From Candidatus Poriferisocius aerobius (lineage in GTDB: Bacteria > Actinomycetota > Acidimicrobiia > Acidimicrobiales > Bin134), in assembly GCA_028278955.1 (NCBI GenBank), contig JAPYOC010000078.1:1-38786 (forward strand): a stretch of 38,786 nt of DNA, given 5' to 3'. Positions 7,992 to 26,409 of the stretch are shown piece by piece. The notes beneath the pieces were generated by a model that saw only the letters and a list, made by a program, of their open reading frames with translations, was not told where the DNA came from and did no database searches. A program made the position numbers and the translations under genes. Positions within the stretch are counted from its first letter, which is position 1. Every line of letters begins with the position of its first letter.

Positions 7992-8199
7992 GCCAGAACC
8001 TCGCCAAAGCCCATCGCGCTGGAGCGGCAACAGGCTCGTCCAGCTGGAGCTGCGCCCCTGCCTCGCAGACCCTCTGGGCCGGCGCCAGACCATCTCGCTC
8101 AGGTTGCCCGTATCGGGAAGAAAAGGCGAACCCATCAGCCAGCCAGAAAGGGTCAAACGACTTTGGGGGTGGCGCTGGTGGTGAGACTTCAGGGCTCAT
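7954..8199 (-). CDS. Small ORF coupled to alkA, unknown
   Basis: An 81-residue frame whose ATG overlaps the alkA stop as ATGA, a layout typical of translational coupling. The product (starting MSPEVSPPAPPP, with KSFDPFWLADGFAFSS) resembles nothing I recognise. Its end overlaps the Fic remnant start by about 38 bases. It may be a genuine small gene, or the surviving head of a gene truncated when the Fic region arrived. Confidence 0.35.
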   Translation of the reverse strand: MSPEVSPPAPPPKSFDPFWLADGFAFSSRYGQPERDGLAPAQRVCEAGAQLQLDEPVAAPARWALARFWHGRDGHPNMGWH

Positions 8200-8807
8200 T
8201 GGTCGGAAACCTCCCAGCAGTACCAGGCGGCGATGCTGCGGTAGGGGCGGAATTGGTCGCCGAGGGGGTCTAGCTCCTCGGCGGTGGGGGGCTCGGTCCA
8301 GCCGTGGGCCAGGCCGTAGCCCTTGCGGACCCCGAGGTCGCCCACCGGCCAGACGTCGAGGCGGCGCAGCGAGAAGATCAAAAACATCTGGGCGGTCCAC
8401 GTGCCGATGCCCCACACCCCGCTGAGCTGGTCTATCACCTCCTCGTCGGACAGCCGGCCGAGCCCGGCCAAATCCAGCGCGCCCTGCTCGCAGCGGGCGG
8501 CCAAGTCGAGCATCGCCCTCGTCTTGGCCCCCGACAGCCCGGCCGACCGCAGCGGCGCCTCCCCCAGGGCCAGCACCGCCTCCGGCGTCCACCGCGCGGT
8601 CTGATCCCGCACCCGGCCCCAGATGGCGCCGGCCGCCTTGCCGGCCAGCTGCTGGTAGGCGATCTCCCGGCTCAGCACCTCGAAGCGCTCCCTGACGGCA
8701 GGCTTCGGGCCAAGCCGGGGCGGGCCGAACCGGCCCACCAGCCCGGCCATCACCTCGGAGGTTTCGCAAAGGGCCCGACTGGCCTCGGTCAAGCTCGCTC
8801 TGGCCAC
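8196..8807 (-). CDS. DNA-3-methyladenine glycosylase II-like (HhH-GPD)
   Basis: A 203-residue AlkA/MAG-type base-excision enzyme that removes alkylated purines. REIAYQQLAGKAAGAIW is the first core block. The helix-hairpin-helix is LSGVWGIGTWTAQMFLIFSL, and the catalytic Asp lies in VWPVGDLGVRKG. It ends WYCWEVSDQ, in keeping with the family's C-terminal YRSIAAWY block. The length is close to short actinobacterial family members and lacks the AlkA N-terminal domain. The start is GTG 8807. It is on the same strand as the corC-like gene, 39 bp downstream of it, so it may extend that operon. Confidence 0.88.
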   Translation of the reverse strand: MARASLTEASRALCETSEVMAGLVGRFGPPRLGPKPAVRERFEVLSREIAYQQLAGKAAGAIWGRVRDQTARWTPEAVLALGEAPLRSAGLSGAKTRAMLDLAARCEQGALDLAGLGRLSDEEVIDQLSGVWGIGTWTAQMFLIFSLRRLDVWPVGDLGVRKGYGLAHGWTEPPTAEELDPLGDQFRPYRSIAAWYCWEVSDQ

Positions 8808-8846
8808 GCCAATGCTCCGAGAACGAACGGGGACCCGAGAACCGTG

Positions 8847-9692
8847 CTATCCGCCAGACGCCGCCGCAGCGACCGGCCTCACCATCACTCGGGCGATGCG
8901 CCGGCCGGTGATCCGCTCCACCAACAGCTCCCAGCCGTCCATCACCAGCGTCTCCCCCTCCTCGGGCACATGGCCCAGGGTGTTGAAGATCAGACCGCCC
9001 ACGGTGTCCCAGTCGCCGTTGGGCAGCGGCGCCCCCAGCACCTCGCTCAGCTCGTCGATGGTCACCCGTCCGTTCACCCGCACCGCTCCGGGCGCCACCC
9101 GCTCGATCATGGGCTCCTCCACGTCGAACTCGTCGACGATCTCGCCTACCAGCTCCTCGATGAGATCCTCGAGGGTGACCACCCCGGCGGTGCCCCCGTA
9201 CTCGTCCACCACGATGGCGATGTGGAACTGCTCGGCCTGCATCTCCCGCAGCAGGAGGGAGATGCGTTTGGTCTCGGGCACGAAGTGGGGGGTCCGGGCC
9301 ACCGCCGCCGCCGCAGACCCGGCGCCCCGCTCCCGCTCGGCCCGCATCAGGTCTTTGGCGTGGACCACGCCCACCACGTCGTCGATCCCCTCGGCGTACA
9401 CCGGCACCCGGCTGTAGCCGTGCTCGATGACGATGGCGATGGCCTCGGCCACCGTGTGCTGGTCGCCTATCGCCACCATGTCGGTGCGGGGCACCATCAC
9501 CTCTCGGGCCACCGTGTCGCCGAACTCGATGATCTGACCGATCAGCTCCCGCTCCTCGGGCTCGATGACGTCGGACGCCTCGGCCGCCTCGGCCATGGCC
9601 AGCAGCTCCTCCTCTGACACCTGCGGCGACTCCTGGCGCCAGCGGGCCGGCACCAGGCGCCCCGCCCACCCGAACCGGCCGGGGGTGCTCAT
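8847..9692 (-). CDS. CorC/HlyC-type CBS-domain protein
   Basis: A 281-residue protein with two CBS domains and a C-terminal CorC_HlyC transporter-associated domain. The CBS pair starts at VAREVMVPRTDMVAI (about residues 60-75) and continues through GYSRVPVYAEGIDDVVGVVHAKDL. The second CBS has HIAIVVDEYGGTAGVVTLEDLIEELVGEI, and the C-terminal domain has VNGRVTIDELSEVLG and DTVGGLIF. No membrane DUF21 domain is present, so this is the soluble CorC-like form, thought to act in Mg/Co efflux or membrane homeostasis. The start ATG overlaps the ybeY stop by four bases. In many genomes era follows directly; here it does not. Confidence 0.9.
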   Translation of the reverse strand: MSTPGRFGWAGRLVPARWRQESPQVSEEELLAMAEAAEASDVIEPEERELIGQIIEFGDTVAREVMVPRTDMVAIGDQHTVAEAIAIVIEHGYSRVPVYAEGIDDVVGVVHAKDLMRAERERGAGSAAAAVARTPHFVPETKRISLLLREMQAEQFHIAIVVDEYGGTAGVVTLEDLIEELVGEIVDEFDVEEPMIERVAPGAVRVNGRVTIDELSEVLGAPLPNGDWDTVGGLIFNTLGHVPEEGETLVMDGWELLVERITGRRIARVMVRPVAAAASGG

Positions 9693-10201
9693 GGCCGCCC
9701 GGCCTGCTGGGGGGCCGCGGCGGCGAGCAGCGCCGCCTCCCGCTGCTGCATCTCGCGGGCATCGGCGTCTTCGACATGGTCGTAGCCCAGAAGGTGCAGG
9801 GCGCCGTGTACCACCAGCAAGGCCAGCTCGCCGGCGACGGGGTTGTCACCGGCCGCGGCATTGGCTGCCGCCACCGAGGGGCAGATCACCACATCGCCCA
9901 CCAGCCGGGGCTCGCCATCGGCCCGGAGCGCGCTCCCGTCGTCAGCACCGAAGGCCAACACGTCGGTGGGCCGGTCGATTCCCCTGTGGGCGGCATTGAG
10001 CGCCGCCATCTCGTCGGCGGCCACGAACGACAAGCCCGCCTCCCAGGGGGTCGCCACCTGCTCCTCGACCATCACCCGGCGAAGCAACGCGGCCCAGCGG
10101 TCTCGGTCCACACCCAGATCCTGTTGGCGGTCGGACACCACGACCGCGGCCTGATCGGCGTCGAAGCCGCTGGGTTTGGGAACCCCGTCGCCGTCGGCCA
10201 T
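9689..10201 (-). CDS. ybeY: Endoribonuclease YbeY
   Basis: A 170-residue zinc-dependent RNase that matures the 16S rRNA 3' end and takes part in ribosome quality control. The metal-binding motif HGALHLLGYDH (three His) is intact. The upstream core includes ALNAAHRGIDRPTDVLAFGADD and GDVVICP. I place the start at ATG 10201, overlapping the phoH stop as TGATG; GTG 10204 (GTGA overlap) is equally compatible. It is coupled to phoH before it and to the corC-like gene after it, the classic ribosome-maturation cluster order. Confidence 0.93.
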   Translation of the reverse strand: MADGDGVPKPSGFDADQAAVVVSDRQQDLGVDRDRWAALLRRVMVEEQVATPWEAGLSFVAADEMAALNAAHRGIDRPTDVLAFGADDGSALRADGEPRLVGDVVICPSVAAANAAAGDNPVAGELALLVVHGALHLLGYDHVEDADAREMQQREAALLAAAAPQQAGRP

Positions 10202-10944
10202 CACCGCCGGACCCGCTCGTAGGCGTCCACGATGTCGGCCACGATGCGGTGGCGGACCACATCACGAGAGCTCAAACGCACGAACGACAAGCCGTCGATG
10301 TCCCCCAAGACCTTCTCCAATGACATCAGACCGCTGCGGCCCCGGTCTACGTCCACCTGGGTCACATCGCCGGTGACCACCGCCTTGGAGCCGAATCCGA
10401 TGCGGGTCAAGAACATCTTCATCTGCTCGGGGGTGGTGTTCTGGGCCTCGTCCAAGATGATGAAGCTGTCATTGAGGGTGCGGCCCCGCATGTAGTCACG
10501 AACCGCCATGGCCACCGCTAGCCAGCTCTTACCGGTGCCGGCCGGACCGATGCCGAACGTGATGATGTTGGCCCGCATAGCGTCGACATAGCGGCGCTGG
10601 CCGGCCGATTGGGGGCGGATAGCCCGGCCCCGGCCCGACCGCAGCACATCGGTGTCCATGACCCCAGAGGGGCTCTCGTCGGCCTCCACCATCTGGATGG
10701 CCCGGCCCAGGGTGCGGGAGTCGAGCGGGTGGCCCCCCTGCACCAGAAGGACCATCTCGTCGAACAGGCCGGCCACCCGCTCGGCGCCCTGGCCCGACAC
10801 GGTGATCCGGTTGCCCCGCACAAAGATGTCGGCATCGGGAAACGACCGCTCGATCTGGCGGAGGTGCTGGTCGCGCTCGCCCAGCAGGGCTGCCATGAGC
10901 CCATTTGGCGCAATGTCTATGGTGACCGGCGCTGCGGTGGTCAT
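10201..10944 (-). CDS. PhoH-like ATPase with internal in-frame deletion
   Basis: PhoH-like proteins are P-loop ATPases related to superfamily 1 helicases and are encoded with ybeY. This one has a KH-like N-terminus ([16 protein letters not shown]), Walker A GPAGTGKS (133-140), Walker [16 protein letters not shown] (161-175) and the C-terminal [21 protein letters not shown] block. It is 247 residues, whereas family members are commonly 310-350. The shortfall is in one place: LAVAMAV (142-148) runs straight into [11 protein letters not shown], skipping the conserved block of about 65 residues that normally holds LTRPAVEAGE and LGFLPGD. The frame is intact across the join (near 10500). It is either a real lineage deletion or an assembly error. 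The ATG abuts the HTH gene stop. Confidence 0.85.
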
Positions 10945-11217
10945 TCAGGAGTCGAAGCCTGCGTCGCTGTCATCATCCTGTCGGTCAGCGGCGCGGGAAG
11001 GCACAGGGTCGGGATAGAGGTGGCCAAGCGTGCCCGGCTCTATCTTGCTGCGCTCGATGAACACATCCACGTCAGACTGCTTCACCCGTATCACACGGCC
11101 CATCCGATACGCAGGCAGGCCCCCCTCGTTGATGAACCGGTACAGCGTCCTGGTGGTGACGCCAAGCCTCTTGGCTGCGGTCTCAGTATTCAGCCATTCA
11201 ATTTGGGATTCGCTCAT
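10945..11217 (-). CDS. Excisionase/MerR-like helix-turn-helix protein
   Basis: A 90-residue DNA-binding protein. EWLNTETAAKRLGVTTRTLYRFINEGGLPAYRMGRVIRV is a winged helix of the excisionase/BldC type (HTH_17), followed by SDVDVFIERS and an acidic tail (DRQDDDSDAGFDS). Its stop codon directly abuts the phoH ATG, so it is the first gene of the phoH-ybeY-corC run and may regulate it; that role is inference. Stand-alone proteins of this type are common actinobacterial regulators and not evidence of a phage by themselves. Confidence 0.8.
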   Translation of the reverse strand: MSESQIEWLNTETAAKRLGVTTRTLYRFINEGGLPAYRMGRVIRVKQSDVDVFIERSKIEPGTLGHLYPDPVPSRAADRQDDDSDAGFDS

Positions 11218-11302
11218 CTCACGACACCTTATCTTGTTTCCGACTGGTCAACCGCAATACTGGTGGAGGAGAGCGCAGCAGTGGTCCCGTCGCGCCCATC
11301 TT

Positions 11303-12082
11303 CTACGCCGGCGGCTCTGGGGCGGTTCGATGGTTGGCGTGGCGCAGCATCTGCAACGCGCTGGCGATGAGCAAGACGGCGAACAGGGTGGCCGACAACC
11401 GGGGGCTGAGCTCGCTGGCCCCGACGGCGCCGATGAAGGCCGAGACCACCCCGGACACACCGACGGTCAGCGCGGCCCTGGGGTCGATGTTGCCCGAGCG
11501 GCGGTTGCGGACGGTTCCGATAAGGGACGTGGGGAGGATCACCAGCAACGAGGTGCCCTTGGCGGTGGGATCGAGGAAGCCGAACAGCAGGATCATTGCG
11601 GGAATCATGACCACCCCCCCGCCCACGCCCATGATGCCCGACAACAAGCCGGTCGCTAGGCCGCAGCCGAAGTAGGCGAAGGCCAACGGCACCGTGACGC
11701 TGCCGTGGCCGTCGGTGCTCGGCGCGGTGACCAAGAACTCGACTGCGGTGACCAGCAGCAACACGGCGAAACCGATTCGCAGCAGGCGGATGGGCAAGTG
11801 GGCGAGCAGCCAGGTCCCGGTCGTCACCCCCACGGACGACCCGGCGAAGATCAGCAGTCCGGGCATCCAGGCCACCGAGCCGTCGAGGAGGAAGCCGACC
11901 AGCGCCGCGGCGGAGATGGGCACCATGGCGCCCAGCGAGGTGCCGTGGGCCCGGCGCTGCTCCATGCCCAAAAGCAGCACCAAACACGGCACCATGAGAA
12001 TCCCGCCGCCCACCCCGAACAAACCGGACAAAAAGCCGGTCGCAACGCCGACCCCGGCGGGCCCCCACTTCGAGTTCTTCAC
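11303..12082 (-). CDS. TSUP family (TauE/SafE-type) membrane transporter
   Basis: A 259-residue integral membrane protein with about eight hydrophobic segments. It carries the twin family motifs in its two halves: GLFGVGGGILMVP near residues 20-32 and GIMGVGGGVVMIP near 150-162. TSUP proteins move sulfonates, sulfite or other organic anions across the inner membrane. No substrate can be assigned. It is followed by 85 bp with no evident gene before the HTH gene, and it lies 40 bp downstream of the acyl-CoA ligase on the same strand. Confidence 0.9.
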   Translation of the reverse strand: MKNSKWGPAGVGVATGFLSGLFGVGGGILMVPCLVLLLGMEQRRAHGTSLGAMVPISAAALVGFLLDGSVAWMPGLLIFAGSSVGVTTGTWLLAHLPIRLLRIGFAVLLLVTAVEFLVTAPSTDGHGSVTVPLAFAYFGCGLATGLLSGIMGVGGGVVMIPAMILLFGFLDPTAKGTSLLVILPTSLIGTVRNRRSGNIDPRAALTVGVSGVVSAFIGAVGASELSPRLSATLFAVLLIASALQMLRHANHRTAPEPPA

Positions 12083-12122: not shown

Positions 12123-13700
12123 TCACCCGGTGGCGGCCTGATCGCGCAGCACGTACTTCAGCACCTTGCCCGAGGCGTTGAGCGGCAGGGCGTCGGCGAA
12201 CCGCACCCGGCGGGGCACCTTGTAGTTGGCCATCTGGCCGCGGCACCAGGCGATGATCTCCGCCTCGCCGGGCTCGGCGCCGGGGACGGGCACCACCGTG
12301 GCCACCGCCACCTCGCCGAGCCGGTCGTCGGGCATCCCGACCACCGCAACCTGCCCGATATGGGGATGAGCAAGCATGATGCTCTCGATCTCGGCCGGGT
12401 AGGCATTGAACCCGCCCACGATGAACATGTCCTTCTTGCGGTCGGTGATGTCGATGTTGCCCCGCTCGTCCATCACCCCGATGTCGCCGGTGTGCAGCCA
12501 GCCGTCGGCGTCGATGGCCTCGGCGGTCTGGATGGGGTCGTCAAGGTAGCCCAACATGATGTTGTAGCCCCGCACCACGATCTCGCCGGGCTCGCCGCAA
12601 GGCACCTCGCGGCGGTCGTCGTCCACCACCTGAACCTCGACGTCGGCAATGGCCCGACCCGAGGTGTTGGCGATGGTCTCGGGGTCGTCGTCGTGACGGC
12701 ACATGGTGGCGATGCCCGATGCCTCGGTGAGCCCGTAACCGGTGACGATGGTCTCGAAACCGAGTCGGGCCCGCATCTGGAGGATCATCTCCACTGGAAT
12801 GGCTGCGGCCCCGGTCACCGCCAGGCGCAGGGTGGACAGGTCGAAGCGGTCGAGGTCGGGGTGGTTCAAGATGGTCTGGTACACAGCCGGCGGCCCCGGA
12901 AGCATGGAGATGCGCTCTTCGGGCACCCGGGCCATCACCGCGGGCACGTCGAACACCGGGTGGGGGATGTTGGCGGCCCCGGTCATCAGGCAGGCCAGGA
13001 TGCCGGAGTTGAGGCCGAAGGCGTGGAAGTAGGGGTTGACGATGAGGTAGCGGTCGCCAGCCCGCAGGCCGATCACCTCGCACCACGAGAAGAAACCCCG
13101 GCAGATGGCCGAATGGACGAGCATGGCCCCCTTGGGCTGGCCGGTGGTGCCCGAGGTGAACATGATGTGGCACAGATCGCCGCCTTTGACGGCGGCGGCT
13201 CGGGCATCGCCGTCGGCCTCGGCCACCTGCCCGGCCCGCTCGAGGAAATCGGCAAAGCCAGTGGCGCCGTCGGGAACGGACCCCCGCAGCACCACAATCT
13301 CATCGAGACCGGAACCGCCGCTGGCTTCGCCGAGCAGGGCGACGTAATCGGTGTCCAAGAAGTCGGTGACGGTGAACAGGATGCGGGCCTTCGACTTCTG
13401 GAGGATGTAGTCGGCCTCGCGCCCCTTGAACCGGGTGTTCACCGGCACCAGGACGCCGCCGGCCAGATGCACCCCCAGCCCGGCCACCACCCACTCCCAA
13501 ATGTTGGGGGCCCACACCGCCACCCGGTCGCCCGGCTCGACACCCGAGGCCATCAGCGCCCGAGCCGAGGCCCGAACGCGGTCGCGCAGCTCCGGGAACC
13601 TCCAGCGCACGTCACCGTCCACCAGCGCCTCTGAGCCGGGAAACCGGCGAGCCGCATCATCGAGCAGTTCGCAGATGGTGGCCCACGGCGCCTCGGACAT
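12123..13700 (-). CDS. Acyl-CoA ligase, FadD3-like AMP-forming
   Basis: A 525-residue ANL-superfamily enzyme that activates a carboxylic acid as acyl-AMP and then acyl-CoA. The phosphate-binding motif is IMFTSGTTGQPKGAML (about 177-192). The A5 motif is GYGLTEASG and the A7 motif WLHTGDIGVMDERG. The hinge and A8 are ITDRKKDMFIVGGFNAYPAEIE, and the A10 lysine is in LPLNASGKVLKY. The overall pattern resembles FadD3/FadD17-type ligases for steroid side-chain or ring products, but substrate choice cannot be read from motifs. It is placed downstream of the first Liv-type binding protein, with a strong hairpin between them. Confidence 0.88.
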   Translation of the reverse strand: MSEAPWATICELLDDAARRFPGSEALVDGDVRWRFPELRDRVRASARALMASGVEPGDRVAVWAPNIWEWVVAGLGVHLAGGVLVPVNTRFKGREADYILQKSKARILFTVTDFLDTDYVALLGEASGGSGLDEIVVLRGSVPDGATGFADFLERAGQVAEADGDARAAAVKGGDLCHIMFTSGTTGQPKGAMLVHSAICRGFFSWCEVIGLRAGDRYLIVNPYFHAFGLNSGILACLMTGAANIPHPVFDVPAVMARVPEERISMLPGPPAVYQTILNHPDLDRFDLSTLRLAVTGAAAIPVEMILQMRARLGFETIVTGYGLTEASGIATMCRHDDDPETIANTSGRAIADVEVQVVDDDRREVPCGEPGEIVVRGYNIMLGYLDDPIQTAEAIDADGWLHTGDIGVMDERGNIDITDRKKDMFIVGGFNAYPAEIESIMLAHPHIGQVAVVGMPDDRLGEVAVATVVPVPGAEPGEAEIIAWCRGQMANYKVPRRVRFADALPLNASGKVLKYVLRDQAATG

Positions 13701-13822: not shown

Positions 13823-15322
13823 CTACCGGTCGGAGTCGCCATAGCACACGAAGTCGTATGCCACCTCGTAGTCGGCGTCCACCACCTGCACCATGCCAGT
13901 ACAGTCGGGGGCGATCACATGGTCGGCGGGGAACTTCACCGCACCGAGGCCGCCGGACTGCTGGGAGGACTCGAAGCCATCGATGTTCGCCGCTTGATAG
14001 AAGCTGGCGGTGTCCAGATCCTCGCCGGCGGCGGCGATCATCTGGATCATGAGGTCGGCCGACCAATACCCCACCAGGCTGCCGAACCCGGGGAAGGCCC
14101 CGACTGCCTCGTAGTCGGCCAAGAGCTGCGAGATGGCCGGCTTGGAGTCGTCGAGCGGGGGCACCTGGGTCACGGCGTAGCCGCCTTCCAGGGCCTGGCC
14201 CAAGTCGGGGCTGGATCCGGGCAGGCCCGGGACATAAGTCAAGAAGTCGGCCACCGGGCCCCCGTAGCCGGAGGCGGCGATGGCAGCCTTGAGGGTGATG
14301 GCACCGGCGAAATCGGTGGAGAGGATCACCAGATCGGGCTCGTTGTCCAGCACCGTGTTCACGAACCGGGTGGGATCGGTGATACCGCCCCCGGTCGAGG
14401 TGGGCACGAACTCGCTGAACGCCAGCTTCCCGGCCCACAGCGTTTTGTACAGCGTGGCGCCGGCGCGACCGGCGTCGTCGTCGCTGTTGAAGATGCCCAC
14501 GGTGATGTCCTCGGTGCCGAAGAAGTCGAACCAGATGTCTCGGACCGACACCAGTGGATCGGCACCCTCCACCCCGAAGGCGTAGCCGCTCAGGCAGCCG
14601 TTGAAACCGAAGCCCCAGTCGTTGGGGGCGCAGAATCCGGGCATGAACCCCCAGCCGGTGAACGGCACCTGGTTCTCGGCCAGATAGTCGGTGGTCTGGG
14701 GCAAAGAGACCGCGGAGGTGACCATGATGCCGAACACCTCGTCGTTCTCCACCATGCTCCGGGCCCCCTCGAAGTTGGCTCCGGGATCGCTGCCGTCATC
14801 CACAAACTGGACCAGCTCCACCGTGCGCCCGCCAGGCAGCTCGCCGTCGCGGTTGGCCCGGTCCAGTCGGGCGTTGATGCCGTCGGTGAATCCGCCGTAC
14901 AGCGCATCCTGGGTCATCGCCCCGAGGCGGATGGTGTCGTCGCTCACCCCGCGGGTGGAGGGCTCGAAATCGATCTCGTAGGTGAAGGCGCCCCACGTGC
15001 GGGAGGCCGCCATCTCCTCGTCCTCCTCGTCGCCGTCCATGGGCTCGTCACCGTCATCGGTGTGCTCGTCGTCGTCATGGTCATGCTCGTCGTCGTCATG
15101 GTCGTGGTCGTCATGCTCGTCGTCGTCATGGTCGTGGTCGTCATGGTCGTCGTCCTTGGACTCAGACTCGGCGTCGTCCATTGGCTCCTCGGCGGGCGCC
15201 TCGGCCGGGGCGGGAGCGGAATCTTGGCCCAGAGCGTCATCGTCATCGTTGCCGCAGGCCGCGGCCACCAACATCAGCGCGGCCAAGAGCGCGAGAAGCT
15301 TGCAGAACAGTGGTCGTTTCAT
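13823..15322 (-). CDS. Branched-chain-amino-acid-type ABC substrate-binding lipoprotein, His/Asp-rich
   Basis: A 499-residue periplasmic-binding-fold protein of the HAAT (LivJ/LivK) family. The ATG at 15322 has GGAGGGG five bases upstream. A lipoprotein signal ends LVAAACG with Cys23 as the lipid site. Residues 57-90 are a His/Asp-rich spacer with nine His. The binding domain follows: TIRLGAMTQDALYGG, an F-D-D-G-S-like segment, and VVDADYEV near the end. It is the partner of the fused permease-ATPase gene 66 bp upstream. The ligand could be an amino acid, amide, urea or another small polar compound. The His-rich stretch hints at metal binding but may only be a flexible acidic tether. Confidence 0.87.
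   Translation of the reverse strand: MKRPLFCKLLALLAALMLVAAACGNDDDDALGQDSAPAPAEAPAEEPMDDAESESKDDDHDDHDHDDDEHDDHDHDDDEHDHDDDEHTDDGDEPMDGDEEDEEMAASRTWGAFTYEIDFEPSTRGVSDDTIRLGAMTQDALYGGFTDGINARLDRANRDGELPGGRTVELVQFVDDGSDPGANFEGARSMVENDEVFGIMVTSAVSLPQTTDYLAENQVPFTGWGFMPGFCAPNDWGFGFNGCLSGYAFGVEGADPLVSVRDIWFDFFGTEDITVGIFNSDDDAGRAGATLYKTLWAGKLAFSEFVPTSTGGGITDPTRFVNTVLDNEPDLVILSTDFAGAITLKAAIAASGYGGPVADFLTYVPGLPGSSPDLGQALEGGYAVTQVPPLDDSKPAISQLLADYEAVGAFPGFGSLVGYWSADLMIQMIAAAGEDLDTASFYQAANIDGFESSQQSGGLGAVKFPADHVIAPDCTGMVQVVDADYEVAYDFVCYGDSDR
15065..15145 (-). repeat. 30-bp tandem repeat coding for HDDHDHDDDE
   Basis: Two full 30-base units (15116-15145 and 15086-15115) code for the decapeptide HDDHDHDDDE, followed by a seven-residue partial unit HDHDDDE to 15065. 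The repeat lies inside the binding-protein gene, just after its lipoprotein anchor. Slippage at this low-complexity tract could change its length between strains. Confidence 0.8.
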
Positions 15323-15388
15323 TTCCCCTCCGATAGTTGGAACGGCGACATAGTAGGCCAAGGGTTCTCGGCTGTCACCCCGAGCCCG

Positions 15389-18300
15389 TCAGCCTGAATT
15401 GGCCGCTGCCTCGCCCAGATAGGCGGCGTCGAGCTGGTCGTGGTCCACCTCGGAGCGGGGTCCTTGCCAGGTGATGTGCCCCAGGCTGATGAAGGCCACC
15501 GAGTCGGCGATTTCCAGCACGTCGCGGGCCTTCTCCTCCACCAAGAGCAGGGCCACGCCCCGCTCCTTGAACTCGACGAACAGCTCCAAAATCTGATCCA
15601 CGATGAGCGGCGCCAGCCCCAGAGACGGCTCATCGGCGATCAGCACCTCGGGGGGGTGGGCCAAAAGCGGCGCCAGGGTGAGTATCTGCTGCTCGCCCCC
15701 GGAGAGGTTTCCGGCCAGCTGGTTCTGGCGCTCTCCCAGGATGGGGAACCGATCACAGCACCGGTCGCGGTCCTCGGGTTGGGGCAGCCAAAGCTGCATA
15801 TTCTCCCGAACGGTCAGCCCGCTGAAAACGCCTCGGGCTTCGGGGGCCAGCACCACGCCTCGTCGTGATCGGTGGTGGCTGCGCAGCGCCGTGATGTCCT
15901 CCCCGTCGAGCCGGACACGACCACAGGTGGCGGGCAGGAGGCCCGATGCCGCTGCGCAGGTGGTGGACTTGCCGGCGCCGTTGGGCCCTAGCAGCGCGGT
16001 GATCTCGCCCCGGGGCACCGACAGGTCGATTCCGTGAAGGGCTTCCACCAATCCGTAGCCGGCCCGCACCCCTGCAAGCTCGAGGGCCGGCGGGTGATCG
16101 CCGACGTACTGGTCGCCCCGCTCCCCGGCGACAGCAGGCGCGGCCGGAGCGGCCGGAGGGGCCGCAGCCGGGGCTGGTTCGGCCGTCGGACTCGAACCGG
16201 CAGCCCCGGCCTCTCCCCGCCACGCGGCCAGCCGCCGGCGCCAGGCATCGCGGCGAGCCCGGTTCTGAGCGGCGGTGAGCGCCAGGATTCCGTCGGGCTC
16301 GCGCGCCAGCTGCATGGCACCGAGGCCGAACATGAAGGCGGTGATGTTGCGGGCCTCGTCGTATTGGTCGAACCCGTCCCAGTCGATGGGGTACCAGGAG
16401 TACACCCGGGCCAGGCAGACGAAGGCCAAAGCGGCCAGCACGCCGAGTATGGGCAACGAGAACGGCAGCCCCGCCCGGCGATCACGGATGGCGGTGGCCA
16501 GCGCCGCCGCCCCGAGCACCGAGGCCACGAGCACCACATGCCACGACTCCATCCAATCCCAGTGCCAGCCGGTTCCGAACGTGTGGCCGCTGGCCGCCAC
16601 CATGACGCCGGCCAGCACGGCGGCGCCAGGCCGGCGGATGCCGACCAAGACAACCACCGCCAGCCAGAACAGCCCGGCTTGGGTGGTGGCGGTGAACGGG
16701 GTCACGTTGCCGATGAAGACGGCGAAAAACACCCCGCCGAACCCGGCCAGCAGCGCGGAGAGGGCGAACACGGCCAGCTTGGCGCGCACGATCGAATGGC
16801 CGGAGGTGGCCGCAGCGGGCTCGGAGTTGCGCACTGCGATGATGATCCGACCGGTGGCCGAGCGCTGGAGGTTGCGAACCAGCCAGGCCGCGGCCAACAC
16901 CAGAATCACCAGCAGCGCCGCAAGGGACTTCTCGTCATCGAAGTCGAATGGCCCCAGCCGGGGGCGGGGTATGTCCCATCCCCTGGCGCCCTGGCCGTTC
17001 TTGAACCAGCTCCACTCGAACAGCACCCGCTCGCTCATGAAGGCCAGCGCCAGCGTGGCCAGCGCCAGCGGCAAACCGCCCAGCCGGAGAGCGGGCAGGG
17101 CCACGACCGCGCCGAGTGCTCCGGCGACGACCACGCCCACGATCAGGGCGGGAACGAACGGCAGCCCGGTTTTGTCCAGGACCAGGCCGGCGGTCATAGC
17201 GGCCATGGTCACGAAGGCGGCTTGGGCCAGGCTGACCATGCCGCCGAGGCCGGTGAGCAGCACCCACGACATGAACACCAGGCCGAAGGCCAAGCCGGTG
17301 ACCCAGAGCCCCAGCCAGAACTGATCGGCGAAGACGAACACCTGCAGCACGATGAACACGGCCCCGAGCGCCCAGGGCAGGCGCACCCGCCACGGGGGGA
17401 GATCGCTGGTGTAGTCGGCGGCCGGGGGGGCGTCGGCCACCACACCGCTGCGGCGGGTGCGCGGCCGGGCCATGAACAGCAGCCCCACCAGCAGCACCAC
17501 GAACGGCACCGAGTTCTCAAAGCCCCGGATGTCCTGGGCGAAGGTGGCGTACTCGCCCACCCACTCCCTCACCACGCCCAAGGCCACGCCGCCGGCGAAC
17601 GCCAGCGGTATGGAGCGGAGTCCGCCCGCCACCGCGGCGGCGGTGGCGATGAACATGAACACGTTGTACTGGCCGGGGTCGAGCGAGTTGAACACCGGGG
17701 CGCCGATCACTCCGGCCAGCCCGGCCAGCATGGTGCCGATCATCCACGCCGCCGACGAGGTGAACGACTCGCTGACCCCCCGCAGTCCGGCCAGATCGGG
17801 GCGGTCCACTGCGGCCCTCATCTGAAGGCCGAGGCGGGTGTGGCGCATCATCGCCCACAGCGCCACCGCGACAACCGCGGCCACCGCCAGCACCGCCCAC
17901 TGGTTGCTGCTGATGCGCAGATCGAAGCTGCCGAGGTCGTAGGTCCAGGTCTCGCTGGGCACCTTCCAGACCCCGGGGGTGAGGAACACGTAATCGCTGG
18001 ACGTGAGGCCCCAGTCCCACGTCTCAGTGCCCAAATCGACGATGAAGTCGGTGAGCGCGGGCAGCGCCACCAGGATCCCGATGGTGGCCATGACTTTGGC
18101 CGCGTCGTTGGCCCGGGCCAGGGGCCGGAAGACGGCCACGTTCAAGAGCTGGCCCAGCAGCGGGCAGAACACCAGCACCACGAGGAAGAACGACAGCAGC
18201 CGCATACCTAGGCTCCCGACGCCCAGGGCGTTGATGAGCTGGAAGTAGAGCATGGCCGAGGTGTAGGCGATGCCCCCGTAGGCGAGGTTGAAGATGCCGG

Positions 18301-18394
18301 TGGAGGTGTAGCTCAGCGTGAGCCCCGCGGCGATCAGCGAGTAGATGGCGCCGGCGATGGCCCCGCTTACCAGCAGCTGGACGAACTCACCCAC
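15389..18394 (-). CDS. LivH-LivM-LivF triple-fusion ABC transporter protein
   Basis: One 1001-residue polypeptide (GTG start 18394) with three Liv modules. Residues 1-310 are a LivH permease (GAIYSLIAAGLTLSYTSTGIFNLAYG). Residues about 330-690 are a LivM permease (LLTGLGGMVSLAQAAFVTMAA). A Pro/Ala-rich linker (about 725-760) leads to a LivF-type ATPase with Walker A LLGPNGAGKSTT, signature LSGGEQQILTLAPLL and Walker B VLIADEPSLGLAPLIV. Usual systems use separate genes and two different ATPases (LivG, LivF); no LivG is encoded here. Its binding protein follows 66 bp downstream. The single ATPase type might homodimerise, or the LivG at 21762 may serve both; both are inferences. Confidence 0.87.
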   Translation of the reverse strand: MGEFVQLLVSGAIAGAIYSLIAAGLTLSYTSTGIFNLAYGGIAYTSAMLYFQLINALGVGSLGMRLLSFFLVVLVFCPLLGQLLNVAVFRPLARANDAAKVMATIGILVALPALTDFIVDLGTETWDWGLTSSDYVFLTPGVWKVPSETWTYDLGSFDLRISSNQWAVLAVAAVVAVALWAMMRHTRLGLQMRAAVDRPDLAGLRGVSESFTSSAAWMIGTMLAGLAGVIGAPVFNSLDPGQYNVFMFIATAAAVAGGLRSIPLAFAGGVALGVVREWVGEYATFAQDIRGFENSVPFVVLLVGLLFMARPRTRRSGVVADAPPAADYTSDLPPWRVRLPWALGAVFIVLQVFVFADQFWLGLWVTGLAFGLVFMSWVLLTGLGGMVSLAQAAFVTMAAMTAGLVLDKTGLPFVPALIVGVVVAGALGAVVALPALRLGGLPLALATLALAFMSERVLFEWSWFKNGQGARGWDIPRPRLGPFDFDDEKSLAALLVILVLAAAWLVRNLQRSATGRIIIAVRNSEPAAATSGHSIVRAKLAVFALSALLAGFGGVFFAVFIGNVTPFTATTQAGLFWLAVVVLVGIRRPGAAVLAGVMVAASGHTFGTGWHWDWMESWHVVLVASVLGAAALATAIRDRRAGLPFSLPILGVLAALAFVCLARVYSWYPIDWDGFDQYDEARNITAFMFGLGAMQLAREPDGILALTAAQNRARRDAWRRRLAAWRGEAGAAGSSPTAEPAPAAAPPAAPAAPAVAGERGDQYVGDHPPALELAGVRAGYGLVEALHGIDLSVPRGEITALLGPNGAGKSTTCAAASGLLPATCGRVRLDGEDITALRSHHRSRRGVVLAPEARGVFSGLTVRENMQLWLPQPEDRDRCCDRFPILGERQNQLAGNLSGGEQQILTLAPLLAHPPEVLIADEPSLGLAPLIVDQILELFVEFKERGVALLLVEEKARDVLEIADSVAFISLGHITWQGPRSEVDHDQLDAAYLGEAAANSG

Positions 18395-19264: not shown

Positions 19265-19392
19265 GGGGGTAGCTTGGCATCTGACGGGCCGGGTGGTGCC
19301 GGACTTGGGCATGCGGCCTCAGGCTGAGCCTATCCGACCTCGGGCGAGTAGCCTGCCGTGTGCAGCCGCCCAGGAAACCGAGGGAGCAGACA

Positions 19393-20586
19393 GTGGAGTT
19401 CGCCATCTTCTTGCAGGGATCGCCTCGCCGGGGAGGGGCCCGCAGCCCCTACTGGGAGCATCAGGCCTTTGAGAACGAGCTGGAGATGGTGCGGCTCGCC
19501 GACCAGCACAACTGGAAGTACGTCTGGGTGAGCGAGCACCACTTCTTGGAGGACTACTCCCACACCTCGGCCAGCGAGGTGTTCATGGCCTACTCCTTCG
19601 CCCAGACCTCCCAGATCCACATGGGATCGGGCATCTTCAACCTGAACCCCATCGTGAACCACCCCATCAAGCTGGCCGAGCGGGTGGCCATGCTCGACCA
19701 CATGAGCAAGGGCCGGTTCGAGTTCGGCACCGGCCGGGGCGCAGGCAGCCACGAGATCGGCGGCTTCGGCATCGACCCGTCGCAGACCAAGGCCAACTGG
19801 GACGAGGTGATCTGGGAGTTCAAGAATATCTGGGGCAGTACCGCCTACTCCCACCCCGACGGCACCGCCTTTCAGACCCCCGAGACCGGCACCTGGGGCG
19901 CGTTCAACGTGCTGCCCAAGCCCTACTGCCACTCACATCCGCCCATGTGGGTGGCGGCGGGCAACACCCCCACCTACGAGAAGGCCGCCCGCCACGGGCT
20001 CGGCGTGCTGGGGTTCAACGTGGCCACCATCTACGAGATGGCCCCCCATGTGGAGGCCTACAAGAACGCGATCAAACACGCCGAGCCCGCCGGGGAGTAT
20101 GTGAACGACAACGTGATGATCGCCAACGGCCTGGTGTGCTTGGAAGACGGCCAGGAAGCCCGCCGGGTTGTGGTGGAGCAGATGCAGCTCAGCTACCTCC
20201 AGTCGCTGGTGTTCAAATACCACGACACCTTCCCCAAGCCCGAGGGGCTGCCGTCGTATCCCACGATGATCCCCGAGCCCACCATCGAAGACGTGGAAGA
20301 GCGCATCGCGGCAGGCTTCCTGCTGTGCGGCGACCCCGACGAGGTGCTGCAGCAGGTGAGAAGGTATGAGGAGATCGGCTGCGACCAGGTGTCTTTCGGC
20401 CTGCCCATCCAGCTCAGCCACGAGCACGCGCTGGAGACCATCCGGCTGTTCGGCGCCCATGTGATCCCCAAGCTGGACAAAGACCCGCTGCACCGCAGCA
20501 CCCGCCAGCGGATCGAGTACGGCGGCCCGCTGGAGATGACCCCCGACCCGCTCTACGAGGTTCCCCGAATCGAGGAGCGCCGGTAG
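19393..20586 (+). CDS. LLM class flavin-dependent oxidoreductase (luciferase-like)
   Basis: A 397-residue FMN- or F420-dependent monooxygenase of the luciferase-like family. I take GTG 19393 as start; a GGGAG ribosome site lies about 8 bases upstream and the mature-like N-terminus EFAIFLQGS follows. Family blocks are WVSEHHFLEDYSHTSAS (about 47-63), IKLAERVAMLDHMSKGRFEFGTGRG, PPMWVAAGNTPTYEKAARHG and GFLLCGDPDEVLQQV. Enzymes of this type oxidise alkanes, nitrilotriacetate, sulfonates or terpenoids. With the nearby transporters and CoA ligase this fits a catabolic region. The substrate is not predictable. Confidence 0.9.
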   Translation: MEFAIFLQGSPRRGGARSPYWEHQAFENELEMVRLADQHNWKYVWVSEHHFLEDYSHTSASEVFMAYSFAQTSQIHMGSGIFNLNPIVNHPIKLAERVAMLDHMSKGRFEFGTGRGAGSHEIGGFGIDPSQTKANWDEVIWEFKNIWGSTAYSHPDGTAFQTPETGTWGAFNVLPKPYCHSHPPMWVAAGNTPTYEKAARHGLGVLGFNVATIYEMAPHVEAYKNAIKHAEPAGEYVNDNVMIANGLVCLEDGQEARRVVVEQMQLSYLQSLVFKYHDTFPKPEGLPSYPTMIPEPTIEDVEERIAAGFLLCGDPDEVLQQVRRYEEIGCDQVSFGLPIQLSHEHALETIRLFGAHVIPKLDKDPLHRSTRQRIEYGGPLEMTPDPLYEVPRIEERR

Positions 20587-21048: not shown

Positions 21049-21761
<713 letters not shown>

Positions 21762-21765
<4 letters not shown>

Positions 21766-22526
21766 TGGCCCACTCCCGCATAGGCACCCCGGAATTCGTC
21801 GCCCCCCAGGTAGGCGGCCCGAACCGCGGCGTCGGCCTGCACCTCAAGGGCGGTACCCGACGCGATGACCTGGCCGAAATCCAGCACGTGGATGCGGGCG
21901 CACACCCCCATCACAAAGCTCATGTCGTGCTCCACCAGCAACACGGCGAGATCGTTGCCCTTGTCGTCCACGAGCTCCAGCAGCATCCGGCCAATGGACG
22001 AGGTCTCCTCTTCGTTGAGACCAGACGACGGCTCGTCCAAGAGCAGCACCCGAGGCCGACAGGCCAAGGCCCGGGCCAGCTCCACTAGGCGTGCGCTCCC
22101 GGTGGGAAGGGTGCCCACGGTCACATCGGCCACATCGCCGAGGCCTACCTTGTCGAGCATCTCGTGGGCCACGTCGTTGACCCGCCGGTGCTTCCACTTG
22201 GCCCGCCGGTTCTTCTCCACCGCCACCCGCACGTTGTCGAACGCGCTCAGGGTGTTGAACGCCTCCAGTTTCTGGAAGGTGCGGGCGATGCCCATCTGCG
22301 ACCGTTTGGCCATGGCGGCCCGGGTGATGTCGGCCCCGTCGAAGCGCACCGTGCCGCTGGTGGGCGCCAGCAAGCCGGTCACCACGTTGAACAAGGTGGT
22401 CTTGCCCGCGCCGTTGGGCCCGATGAGACCGGTCACCTCACCGGGAGCGATGTCTACCGAGGCGCCGTCGAGCGCCACCACACCGCCGAAGCGCATGACC
22501 ACGTGCTCAGCTTCGAGCAGAGCCAT
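21762..22526 (-). CDS. livG: Branched-chain amino-acid-type ABC ATPase LivG
   Basis: A 254-residue nucleotide-binding subunit with Walker A GLIGPNGAGKTTLFNVVTG and Walker B RVLLLDEPSSGLNEEET. LivG-type features include the FQKLEAFNTLSAFDNVRVAV helix after the Q-loop and the switch HDMSFVMGVCARIHVLDFG. The signature motif is LPTGSARLVELARAL rather than the canonical LSGGQ-like form, which is common for LivG proteins. The start overlaps the end of the fused permease by 20 bases, so translation is likely coupled. Confidence 0.9.
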
Positions 22527-24705
22527 AACCCTCCTTCGGCACGACGTCGTCCAATATCCCCAGCCGGCGGTCGATGGCGATCACCTCTTCGGGAGTGAAC
22601 GGCCGCTCGATGCCCAACTCGCCGATCTCCGGCTCTCGCTTCTGGGCATTCTCGGCCGCGATCTCGGCCCGGGCGTCGCTGCGCCACGGCAGAAGGGGCG
22701 AGAAGCCCCGACCCATCTCGAAGATGGCCCCCCGAGGGTTGAACACCATGCCCAACACCATCAGCCCCGGCCCGTAGGTGGTCATGATCTCGAGCAGCGT
22801 AACCAGGAAATCCACGTTTCCGGTGTCTTCCAGGCGGTGGCCCAAGCCGGTGAACAGCGGGATGAAGATCAAAAAGATTCCCGCCACCGGGATCGAGACC
22901 CCCGCGGCTGCCACCAGCAGGACGATGTTGAAGCCGATGAGCAGGTCGAACCCCTGCACGCTGTCCACGTTGCCCGACACCGTGGCCCAGAACACTCCGG
23001 CGATTCCGGCCATTGCGGCCGACAGGGCATACACCACCACCTTGGTCCACACCACCGGGATGCCCAGAGTGGCCGAAGCGGCCTGCGAGTCGTTGACGGC
23101 CATCCATCGCCGCCCGTACCGGGATCTTCGCAACAGCACCAGCGCGTACACGAAGACGGCGAAAACACTCACGATCAGAAGGAAGAACCCTCGCCGGTCG
23201 TCGAAGGTCACGCCGAACAGCTCTATGTGCGGGAACTGGCGACCGACCCCGATGGTGGGCAATATCCACGAGTGGGGGAAGAAGATCAGCGACATCGCCT
23301 GGGCGAAAGCCATGGTCATGAGGGCCAGATACAACCCCCGCAGCCGGGCGGCCGGCAGGGCCACGAGGGCGCCGAGCGGCGCGCACAGCAGGCCGACAAG
23401 CAGTATCCAATAGCCGTCGCCGGTATCGCCGGCCAGCTTGAGGTACACGAACGCCCCAAATCCGGCAAACGCCAAGGGAGCGAAGTTGATCTGCCCCGCC
23501 CAGCCGATCAGCGGCACCAAGGACAAGCCGATCAGGGCGAAGGCCATAGCCTCGTTGGCGGAGTTCAGCTCTCGGCTGCCCCACGCTCCCGGATCCCAGA
23601 TGCCGAAGTCCAGCCAACCGCCGGAGAGCGCCACCGCCGCCAAGATGATGACTCCGCAGCCGATGAGCCCCTCCCACCATTTGGTGAAGCGCTCGTGGCG
23701 GCGGAGGTTGTGGGCCAGGCGCCCCACTTCCAGGCGGGCCTGAGGCAGAGCGATCACCACGAACAGCAAGATGAGCGGAGCGATCGACAAGTGGGCGAAG
23801 CGGTAGTCGGGCCCGAAGTCCAGCCACGCCCCGGTGTGGGCCCGCAAGAGCCCGATCAGCATGGCCCCCACCACGGCCATGGGCAGGTTCCGCAAGGCGC
23901 CAAACGCAGCGGCGGCGAACGCGATGATCACCACGTTGTTGAGGGTGGCGGGGTCGAGGCCGAGCTCAGGGGCGATGAGAATGCCGCCTAGCGCCCCCAG
24001 CATGGAGCCCAGCGCCCAGGAGGTGGACGACACTGCGTTCGGTCGGGCCCCGTTCAGCGCGGCCAGCTCCCGGTTGTCCACCACCGCCCGCATGGCCGTG
24101 CCGATCCGGGTGCGGCGCAGCAGGTAGCGCATGGCCACGGCAATGGCGACGGCCACCAGGAACACGATGAGCCGGTGCCAAGGAAGCTGCGATGGGCCGA
24201 GGTCGATGCCGTTCTCGATGCCGAACAGGTACGGCACCCGGCGCGGAGTGTCGGCTTCCCAGATGTCGCCCACCACCGACAGCAACAGCACCATGATGGC
24301 GACGGTGACCATGAGCTGCACCACCAGAGACGCGGTGCGCAGCCGCCTCATGATCACGACGTCGAGGAGCACGCCGAGCGCAGGGGCGAACAGGCCCACC
24401 ACCACGAACAGGGCCAGGATGGAATGCCATCCCCGGTTCACATGGAGTTCCCAGTAGAGGAAGGCGGCGAACACCCCGATGGCGCCCTGAGCGAAGTTGA
24501 ACACCCCGGTGGTGGTGTACACCACCACCAGCCCGGTGGCATACATCGCCCACAGAGCCCCCAGGAAAAGCCCGATGTAGGTAGTGACCAAGAAGGTCTG
24601 GCCGGTAACCGGGGCGCCCTTCCAGTTGAAAACGGCGATGACCACCGCGGCCATTGCCGCCAGCAATGCCGCAAGGGCAACCGGCGGCCTCAGCCCCAAG
24701 ATCAC
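22507..24705 (-). CDS. Fused LivH-LivM branched-chain amino-acid-type permease
   Basis: A 732-residue membrane protein in which the two HAAT permeases are joined. The first half (about 1-310) has LWAMYATGLVVVYTTTGVFNFAQGA of LivH; the second (about 340-690) has LIGWAGQINFAPLAFAGFGAF of LivM. A cytosolic tail (about 690-732) with EKREPEIGELGIERPFTPEEV-like charge precedes the LivG gene. Separate LivH and LivM proteins form a heterodimeric channel; fusion fixes their 1:1 ratio. Unlike the first transporter, the ATPases are separate genes here. Confidence 0.9.
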   Translation of the reverse strand: MILGLRPPVALAALLAAMAAVVIAVFNWKGAPVTGQTFLVTTYIGLFLGALWAMYATGLVVVYTTTGVFNFAQGAIGVFAAFLYWELHVNRGWHSILALFVVVGLFAPALGVLLDVVIMRRLRTASLVVQLMVTVAIMVLLLSVVGDIWEADTPRRVPYLFGIENGIDLGPSQLPWHRLIVFLVAVAIAVAMRYLLRRTRIGTAMRAVVDNRELAALNGARPNAVSSTSWALGSMLGALGGILIAPELGLDPATLNNVVIIAFAAAAFGALRNLPMAVVGAMLIGLLRAHTGAWLDFGPDYRFAHLSIAPLILLFVVIALPQARLEVGRLAHNLRRHERFTKWWEGLIGCGVIILAAVALSGGWLDFGIWDPGAWGSRELNSANEAMAFALIGLSLVPLIGWAGQINFAPLAFAGFGAFVYLKLAGDTGDGYWILLVGLLCAPLGALVALPAARLRGLYLALMTMAFAQAMSLIFFPHSWILPTIGVGRQFPHIELFGVTFDDRRGFFLLIVSVFAVFVYALVLLRRSRYGRRWMAVNDSQAASATLGIPVVWTKVVVYALSAAMAGIAGVFWATVSGNVDSVQGFDLLIGFNIVLLVAAAGVSIPVAGIFLIFIPLFTGLGHRLEDTGNVDFLVTLLEIMTTYGPGLMVLGMVFNPRGAIFEMGRGFSPLLPWRSDARAEIAAENAQKREPEIGELGIERPFTPEEVIAIDRRLGILDDVVPKEGYGSARS

Positions 24706-24748: not shown

Positions 24749-26287
24749 CTAGCCCCCGAAATCTGCGGCCCAGTCGCGGGTATGCTCAACCACGCTCTCG
24801 GGGCTGCACGCCAACTCGCCGGGCTCCTCGGGATACACCCGGACGAATGCTCCGTTTTGCACCTGCGACAGCACGAAGCAGGGAATGATGTTCTGGGTGG
24901 TGGCGTAATCGGCAGGACCCCACCAGCCGTTCACATCGAAGGAGGTGAGGCTGCGGGCCTTGTCGAGCACTGCTTGGCGGGTAAGGCCGTTGGGGCCGGA
25001 TTCAGCCACGATCTCATCGACGATCTGCTCTAGCAGCACGCCTCCGGCCCATGCGCCAGCCGCCCACGCGGGCGGGAAGTCGGTGTCGATGGCTTCAATG
25101 AAGTCGGCCAATTCCTGGTTGTACTCAGTCTCGTGGAACGGCAGGTACCAACCCCACGAGTAGGTGCCCTCGACCACGTCGCCAGCCTCCAAGAAGTCGG
25201 GGGTGTAGCACGACAGCGAGCACATCCAGATGATGCTGTCGGCGTCGAGGCCTTGAGCCTCAGCTTCGCTTCGCCACTTGAGCATGGACTCGCCGTCGGA
25301 GCCGGTGTAGGCGAAGTTGGAGTTGTTGTCCCTCATGATCTGGATGAATGCCCCGTACTCCGACTGGGTGGTGAAGCCGCTGATGCCGGGCACGCTGTGG
25401 AAATCCACACCGATGGACGCCATAGCCCGAGCTTGGGGCATGGTCGAGGTGATGGTGGACGGCAAGTCGGACGGCACCAGGAACAGCCCGCTGAGGTCGG
25501 GGGTGACGTTGTCCATGACCCACTGCACGGGGCCGATCTGGCTCTGCACCGTGCGCGGCCCGCTGCCCGAATAGGGGCAAGCGCTGTTGGGCCGGGCGGT
25601 GGCGAACGTCACCACCGAGCATTGGTGGGGCGGCTCGGTGGCGATGTAGGCGAAGTCGGGCACCCCGACTTCATTGCCTCCGGCATCGGGACAGGACTGC
25701 AAATCCGTGGTTTCGAGGCCGAAGAGAACCGTGGTGCCCACCATCGCGAAGGCGCTTTCGCACGCCAACAAGAATCCATTGGTGGTCTCGGTGGGATTGA
25801 TCGCCGAATCGTGCTCGACGACTTCAACCTGCCGGCAGGCCAACCCCCCCTCGGCGTTCACATGGTCGGCCCATGCATTGACCCCGTCCATCGAGCCTTG
25901 GAACAAGCCGGGTGACAGCGGTGAGCCGACATCAGCCATGACCAGCACAGTGATGGTGTCTTCGGTGATCCCGATATCGGAAGCCTCCAAGTCCACTGCC
26001 TCACACGGATCGACTTCTGGCTCTTGCGTCGCAACCGGCCCGGCGTTGGAGTCGTCGCCCAAGCCATCATCCATGGAGTCCTCGCCCATATCGTCGTCTA
26101 TGGAGTCGTCGCCCATATCGTCGTCTATGGAGTCGTCGCCCAAGCCGTCATCCATGGAATCGGATGCCTCCGTCGGGGCGGCAGCGAGAGTGGCCGCGTC
26201 CGAATCGTCGTCGTCATTGCCGCCGCACGCCGCGGCGACCAGTGCGAGAACAGCCAATAAGCAGATGAGCCAACGGAAGTGCTTCAC
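24749..26287 (-). CDS. Branched-chain-amino-acid-type ABC substrate-binding lipoprotein with acidic repeats
   Basis: A 512-residue HAAT-type binding lipoprotein. GTG 26287 is the start that directly precedes a proper signal peptide (KHFRWLICLLAVLALVAAAC, lipid Cys21) and has a G-rich ribosome site. Residues 44-79 are four acidic nonapeptide repeats. The binding fold follows: TITVLVMADVGSPLSPG, GGLACRQVEVVEHDSA and DFIEAIDTDFPPAWAAGAWAG. Several Cys (for example in MCSLSCYTPDF and SACPYSG) could form disulfides outside the cell. It lies 43 bp upstream of the fused permease and heads the second transporter operon. Confidence 0.87.
   Translation of the reverse strand: MKHFRWLICLLAVLALVAAACGGNDDDDSDAATLAAAPTEASDSMDDGLGDDSIDDDMGDDSIDDDMGEDSMDDGLGDDSNAGPVATQEPEVDPCEAVDLEASDIGITEDTITVLVMADVGSPLSPGLFQGSMDGVNAWADHVNAEGGLACRQVEVVEHDSAINPTETTNGFLLACESAFAMVGTTVLFGLETTDLQSCPDAGGNEVGVPDFAYIATEPPHQCSVVTFATARPNSACPYSGSGPRTVQSQIGPVQWVMDNVTPDLSGLFLVPSDLPSTITSTMPQARAMASIGVDFHSVPGISGFTTQSEYGAFIQIMRDNNSNFAYTGSDGESMLKWRSEAEAQGLDADSIIWMCSLSCYTPDFLEAGDVVEGTYSWGWYLPFHETEYNQELADFIEAIDTDFPPAWAAGAWAGGVLLEQIVDEIVAESGPNGLTRQAVLDKARSLTSFDVNGWWGPADYATTQNIIPCFVLSQVQNGAFVRVYPEEPGELACSPESVVEHTRDWAADFGG
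26049..26156 (-). repeat. 27-bp tandem repeat, four units, in binding-protein gene
   Basis: Four 27-base units code for SMDDGLGDD, SIDDDMGDD, SIDDDMGED and SMDDGLGDD. The outer two units resemble each other, as do the inner two. The repeat tract follows the lipid anchor and probably forms an acidic tether between membrane and binding domain. Confidence 0.85.
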
Positions 26288-26409
26288 GATTCCCCCTTTA
26301 CGTAACCGGCTCGCTCCCATGGTGCGGCCAGCGTTATAACGGGCGCCATTATTGCCCATCCGGTGGCCTGTCTGCCATATTTGCGGCCGTCGCCAATGCA
26401 GAACCGAGG

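Follow-up and report, generated by a model that had tools for sequence, protein, structure and literature searches.

The window, a stretch of 38,786 nucleotides of contig JAPYOC010000078.1 from the Candidatus Poriferisocius aerobius assembly GCA_028278955.1, encodes a 1001-residue fusion of the permeases LivH and LivM with the ATPase LivF (hereafter HMF; positions 15389–18394, minus strand). Judging from domain content and phylogeny, HMF is very probably the core of an importer of the HAAT type, in which one HMF chain would be joined by one LivG ATPase encoded in trans, on contig C12 of the same genome. In this arrangement, a single HMF chain would contribute the two permease domains together with the LivF ATPase, one C12 LivG would act as the second ATPase, and the binding protein whose gene follows HMF would hand over the substrate. 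We infer the physical pairing of HMF with LivG and its 1:1 stoichiometry.

HMF reads from a GTG start at 18394 to a stop codon ending at 15389; the plus strand from 15389 is interrupted by stops and holds no continuous frame. Pfam recognizes two BPD_transp_2 stretches (E = 6.6e-52) and one ABC_tran domain (residues 786–924). The LivH-like permease domain covers residues 1–320 (17435–18394, minus strand; PF02653 stretch at 17489–18373), and the LivM-like permease domain covers about residues 331–640 (16475–17404, minus strand; PF02653 at residues 364–623). By hydropathy, the LivM part is followed by an extra hydrophobic stretch near residues 640–670 and then by a variable linker. The ATPase domain occupies residues 765–1001 (15392–16102, minus strand) and carries the motifs GPNGAGKST, LSGGEQQ, DEPSL, and VEEK, the last with a Glu at the position of the switch His. 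Among NCBIfam models it scores best with UrtE (161.8 bits) and LivF (142.9 bits, against 94 bits for LivG), yet all these scores lie below the curated equivalog cut-offs, and the domain is therefore named 'LivF-like'. Compared with PDB, the full protein gave 398 matches, of which the top 60 all fall within the ATPase domain. A predicted structure of HMF, based on an alignment of 15 sequences (the window and 14 close relatives), was discarded (mean pLDDT 33, pTM 0.23).

The fusion is real and not an assembly artifact, because 18 of the 22 genus genomes in a survey of 41 genomes (our own genome, G000, and 40 relatives) carry a full-length match. The other 17 copies are 80–91 per cent identical to the window HMF, and the 41-genome search found no HMF in the genus genomes G004, G009, G016, and G019. 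The earlier note had described a single-chain fusion of two permeases and one ATPase that might yet break into separate frames; the frame, the Pfam domains, and the 18 genus genomes confirm the fusion, which is interrupted by in-frame stops only in G001 and G020. These stops (TAG, TGA), which may reflect either sequencing error or decay, lie in the LivH part of G001:C42:3832-6837 (locus L034) and G020:C120:5516-8518 (locus L039). HMF is under purifying selection, with a median dN/dS of 0.089 across 15 copies (G001, G010, and G020 were left out).

No LivG gene is present in the HMF operon of the window, as the earlier note had stated, but its description of the transporter as being without LivG fails genome-wide: contig C12 carries a detached LivG of the clade that is associated with HMF. 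This 272-residue protein (minus strand; start most likely at 6930, stop ending at 6112) was found by searching our own genome for the LivG tail PF12399 (BCA_ABC_TP_C), which both it and its G007 relative carry above the cut-off; C12 has no BPD_transp_2 domain. C12 LivG is 61 per cent identical to the LivG encoded directly upstream of HMF in G033 and 54.5 per cent identical to the LivG of the HMF operon in G023, two genomes from two other families of the order. With the LivG of operon B, a second Liv operon in the window, the corresponding identities are 47 and 44 per cent. Five of the 16 rows in this pairwise table were read out of frame and are without a comparison (C218, C173, C95, G007hmg, and G035hmg), and all five are included, in the correct frame, in the LivG tree.

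In the LivG phylogeny (58 rows, without the partial LivGs of G010 and G001 and without L169, a third copy in G161 that is 46 per cent identical), the 17 genus sequences and 16 HMF-associated LivGs form one group (support of 100/99), within which the genus sequences are sister to G033 (99/97). Outside this group are the operon B LivG, 23 other sequences that include eight LivGs of our own genome, and the LivG of G046. The pairing of the genus with G033 recurs in the HMF phylogeny (100/99; 34 rows, without the short G001 copy, G020, and L169), and the groups G095/G232, G098/G347, and G250/G390/G023/G360/G151 are common to both trees. Deeper branches are weakly supported in both trees, and G349 is placed differently between them.

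At the search cut-off, the genus LivG is present in 18 of the 22 genomes (17 full-length copies and a partial one in G010). Together with a partial copy at a contig start in G001 (94 per cent identity over residues 6–89), a detached LivG occurs in 17 of the 18 HMF-bearing genus genomes. The eighteenth is G005, whose contig ends inside the neighboring acyl-CoA dehydrogenase gene, before the place of LivG. Loss of LivG was considered for G001 and G005, of which the former holds its partial copy and the latter has a contig that stops short. Two further genomes, G004 (2.2 Mb) and G016 (1.8 Mb), have neither HMF nor the detached LivG. In chromosomes assembled as single contigs, HMF and LivG are 503 kb apart in G007 (3,213,187 to 3,716,021) and 1.28 Mb apart in G014 (908,875 to 2,184,402), which rules out contig loss as the source of the missing LivG in the genus. 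The genus LivG is also under purifying selection (median dN/dS = 0.071; G009, G017, G019, G020, and partial copies were left out).

To place these observations in a wider context, we searched a sample of 397 genomes of the order, scoring the best six LivG candidates and the best five LivH or HMF candidates per genome and calling HMF at 195 bits or more with the LivH part of HMF as the query. HMF was called in 15 genus genomes and in 15 other genomes, the latter with 17 loci, three of them in G161; the next-best LivH scores, from frames of 624–824 residues, were at most 163 bits. For G095 and G390, we infer HMF, since in each the contig ends before the ATPase domain is reached. At E <= 1e-68, 30 genomes have a match to the LivG query, 16 of them outside the genus, and 15 of these 16 are the 15 non-genus genomes with HMF. 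The sixteenth, G046 (E = 6.6e-69, 50 per cent identity), has its LivG beside its own LivF and outside the clade and was tallied as having neither gene. HMF and LivG thus co-occur frequently (28/2/1/366, P-value = 1.7e-39), in a table that is uncorrected for kinship and driven by the linkage of the two genes in the outgroups.

Outside the genus, LivG lies within the HMF operon at 15 of the 17 loci, either next to HMF, across a single binding-protein gene, or at a distance of 1.6 kb (G161 C237). Of the remaining two, G360 has LivG with a binding protein, and HMF, each beginning at a contig end, and G329 has LivG and HMF on the same contig and strand, 24 kb apart. In the class Actinomycetes, LivG is directly beside HMF in Nonomuraea gerenzanensis and Embleya sp. 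NBC_00888 (56 and 55 per cent identity), the only two records of a plasmid collection that matched at E <= 1e-60. The module of LivG, HMF, and binding protein therefore spans two classes of Actinomycetota and is usually a single operon outside the genus. That relatives always have a LivG beside HMF, which the earlier note named as grounds for refuting its reading, nearly holds outside the genus (at 15 of the order sample's 17 loci and in two of two Actinomycetes records) and does not hold inside it. As a separate observation, the 6.4-Mb genome G161 has three HMF modules, on C173, C237, and C239 (loci L169, L137, and L138), each with a LivG and a binding protein.

The earlier note had suggested that HMF might borrow the LivG of operon B (21762–22526, minus strand), which indeed starts 3.4 kb from HMF. 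What stands of this suggestion is that a gene outside the HMF operon most likely provides the second ATPase; by clade membership, this is probably the C12 LivG, and borrowing from operon B is very unlikely. Sugar importers offer a precedent in orphan ATPases that are shared by several systems, as described in parts of PMC7658222. Moreover, HMF also occurs at 16 named loci of metagenome-assembled genomes (MAGs; mostly Acidimicrobiia or Acidimicrobiales, one of them Candidatus Poriferisocius anaerobius), and the operon B LivG is within the available flank at nine of them; apart from it, no LivG was matched in these flanks, some of which are short. However, operon B has its own LivH-LivM fusion (732 residues; 22507–24705, minus strand; identified by Pfam) and its own LivF (21049–21765, minus strand; Pfam and NCBIfam). 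Its LivG is outside the HMF-associated clade, of which a detached member exists, and at locus L042 the 10 kb upstream of HMF contain no operon B.

The ATPase motifs bear on how many chains such an importer would comprise. In the HMF ATPase, Walker A, Walker B, and the signature LSGGE (MSGGE in one sequence) are present, and the place of the switch His is taken by Glu in 19 of 19 sequences (five genus sequences are included, and G095 and G390 end before this position). The LivGs of the HMF-associated clade have the switch His in 33 of 33 sequences and a degenerate signature, which is LPIAR in the 17 genus sequences, LPxG in 14, and LSIG or LAIG in two of the other clade members. In this class of ATPases, each ATP site combines the switch His from one subunit with the signature from its partner. 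Because the two elements come from different subunits, only a LivF/LivG pair would have one consensus site. Since one HMF chain holds both permease domains, one LivG would complete the usual two-plus-two arrangement of an ATP-binding cassette (ABC) importer.

Within our own genome, which is 93 per cent complete, LivG is adjoining or fused in nine of the ten permease systems with a match to the Liv panel; HMF is the sole exception, and C12 carries the one LivG that has no permease gene beside it. The BPD_transp_2-bearing contigs C7, C74, C91, C104, C131, and C192 have no match to the Liv permease panel. A mirror arrangement was seen elsewhere in the genome, at C56:7595-11214 (locus L077): a LivH-LivM-LivG fusion with a separate LivF adjoining. 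Such fusions, of about 960–1100 residues, also occur with a separate LivF in G007, G035, and G028 (loci L075, L076, and L080).

Several observations weigh against the pairing of HMF with the C12 LivG, and some of them would fit an alternative in which HMF is a relict and the detached LivG works with a different permease. In G019 (95 per cent complete) and G009 (68 per cent), LivG is present and both HMF and the fadD3 orthologue were not found; this end of the window locus has therefore either been lost in these genomes or fallen into a gap of the MAG. Two HMF copies carry the in-frame stops noted above. On C91 (locus L182), a non-Liv BPD_transp_2 pair at 8163–10180 has no ATPase matched within 19.9 kb, so that permeases without an ATPase are not unique to HMF in our genome; no binding protein was matched in these 19.9 kb either. 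Within the genus alone, the co-occurrence of HMF and LivG is not significant (16/2/2/2, P-value = 0.135, with G001 not yet counted as having both). The LPIAR signature of the genus LivG has lost the Gly that the other 16 clade members keep. Finally, 16 other LivF sequences, examined as a control, have Gln at the switch-His place; the motif complementarity is therefore general to LivF/LivG pairs and no pointer to the C12 LivG. Nevertheless, we regard a relict HMF as very unlikely, given that both HMF and LivG are under purifying selection, that the search of our genome turned up no second Liv-panel permease system lacking LivG, and that the supported groups of the HMF and LivG trees agree.

A LivF homodimer that works with no LivG at all, also raised in the earlier note, would suit an operon without LivG but is extremely unlikely. 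It would combine four permease domains with a non-His residue at the switch position of both sites, most HMF relatives outside the genus keep LivG in the operon, and the genome does hold a LivG of the appropriate clade. The motif pattern argues against this homodimer and not for the C12 LivG in particular.

The proposed importer of one HMF chain and one detached LivG resembles LivKHMGF and other HAAT importers in having a Peripla_BP_6 binding protein, two BPD_transp_2 domains, and LivF-like and LivG-like ATPases. It is unlike them in that LivH, LivM, and LivF form one chain and the LivG gene stands apart, at 0.5 and 1.3 Mb from HMF in the two genus genomes assembled as single contigs. Unlinked ATPases are already known for sugar importers (parts of PMC7658222) and for the steroid importer Mce4 (parts of PMC6678751). 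MsmX and MsmK are likewise encoded at a distance from their permeases; in the parts of PMC7658222 that treat them, they serve several importers, MsmX as a dimer, whereas here one LivG-less Liv permease would be matched by one LivG, which is apparently dedicated to HMF and not shared. The gene for MceG (Mkl), the ATPase of Mce4, is also unlinked to its transporter cluster, mce4, and also belongs to a steroid context, but the transporter is of another type and Mkl serves Mce1 as well, according to parts of PMC6678751. What is new here is a predicted HAAT importer with LivH, LivM, and LivF in one chain and LivG in trans; no paper on either an orphan LivG or a fused LivHMF came up in a phrase search of the literature. 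A Liv-type operon without LivG would thus not necessarily be homodimeric or broken, and its absent ATPase may be traceable by clade. With its presumed fixed 1:1 chain ratio and an ATPase supplied in trans, such an importer would also offer a simple case for how LivG and LivF find their permeases.

The genes around HMF and LivG offer hints about the substrate. Downstream of the HMF-side binding protein, the window encodes an acyl-CoA ligase of the FadD3 family (12123–13700, minus strand; NF005801, 702.5 bits against a cut-off of 657), whose closest solved relatives are feruloyl-CoA synthetase and FadD13. The genus LivG is flanked at 17 of 17 full-length loci by an acyl-CoA dehydrogenase or a luciferase-like monooxygenase (LLM) gene on one side and by an SRPBCC gene on the other. 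At six loci with long flanks (L150–L154 and L172), ipdC- and ipdB-like genes are near LivG, and ipdA is there at five of the six; the G007 A and B proteins match chains A and B of the solved IpdAB (6co6) with E-values of 7.5e-99 and 1.8e-86. Catabolism of 3aα-H-4α(3′-propanoate)-7aβ-methylhexahydro-1,5-indanedione (HIP) begins with FadD3, and IpdABC act downstream, according to parts of PMC5380842. With a fadD3-family gene near HMF and the LivG of relatives in an ipdABC-like operon, a steroid C/D-ring-type (HIP-like) or similar cyclic carboxylic acid is a possible substrate, which we put forward tentatively.

Other results count against a steroid context. The acyl-CoA dehydrogenases near LivG score 154–155 bits with the IpdE2 model, well below its cut-off of 450, and no ipdABC genes were seen on our own contig C12. 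Across 25 outgroup stretches, no ipdA or ipdB was matched, IpdC was found only in G329, and no FadD exceeded 36 per cent identity. The failure to match ipdA and ipdB in the HMF neighborhoods of other genera lowers the odds on this substrate. In G329, a single stretch holds LivG, two LLM genes (LLM1, 62 per cent; LLM2, 47 per cent), an IpdC-like gene (56 per cent), two acyl-CoA dehydrogenases (55 and 43 per cent), the binding protein, and HMF, so that one neighborhood there combines genes that the genus has at two loci. In Nonomuraea, a pair of acyl-CoA dehydrogenases (52 and 42 per cent) is about 4.5 kb from LivG. Separately, C12 (locus L078) has a 760-residue frame at 9155–11437, beyond the acyl-CoA dehydrogenase pair, where relatives have ipdC/B/A, reflecting either a rearrangement or a chimeric contig.

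In the Actinomycetota, ABC uptake of steroid breakdown acids has a precedent in CamABCD of Rhodococcus jostii RHA1, which imports cholate metabolites (parts of PMC8399759 and PMC6498646) and is likened to the present system by description only (also parts of PMC6678751). A title-level literature search returned no title on a transporter of steroid breakdown acids in Acidimicrobiia, for which HMF and LivG would be a candidate. A more speculative and rather doubtful idea is that the split is functional, with LivG made together with the C/D-ring catabolic operon and the HMF importer active only when the consuming enzymes are expressed; LivG would then be the commitment subunit of a HAAT importer.

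Among the other genes of the window, the substrate-binding protein that adjoins HMF downstream (13823–15361, minus strand) belongs to Peripla_BP_6 (E = 9.7e-30) and has a relative adjoining HMF in most loci examined; a phmmer search of PDB gave no match to it at E <= 0.001. On the other side of HMF, LLM1 is encoded at 19360–20586 (plus strand), and its 62 per cent relative in G329 sits between LivG and HMF. Operon B includes a substrate-binding protein of its own (24749–26359, minus strand; identified by Pfam). Long acidic stretches occur close to the N terminus in both binding proteins: that of the HMF-side protein is rich in His and Asp, with a weak match to ZrgA (E = 1.5e-4), and that of the operon B protein is a repeated acidic pattern. 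At a relative locus (L028:7786-9959), Amidohydro_2 and MDMPI_N genes, which the window lacks, are situated between a 262-residue gene and HMF, and the MDMPI frame opens with a short repeated peptide.

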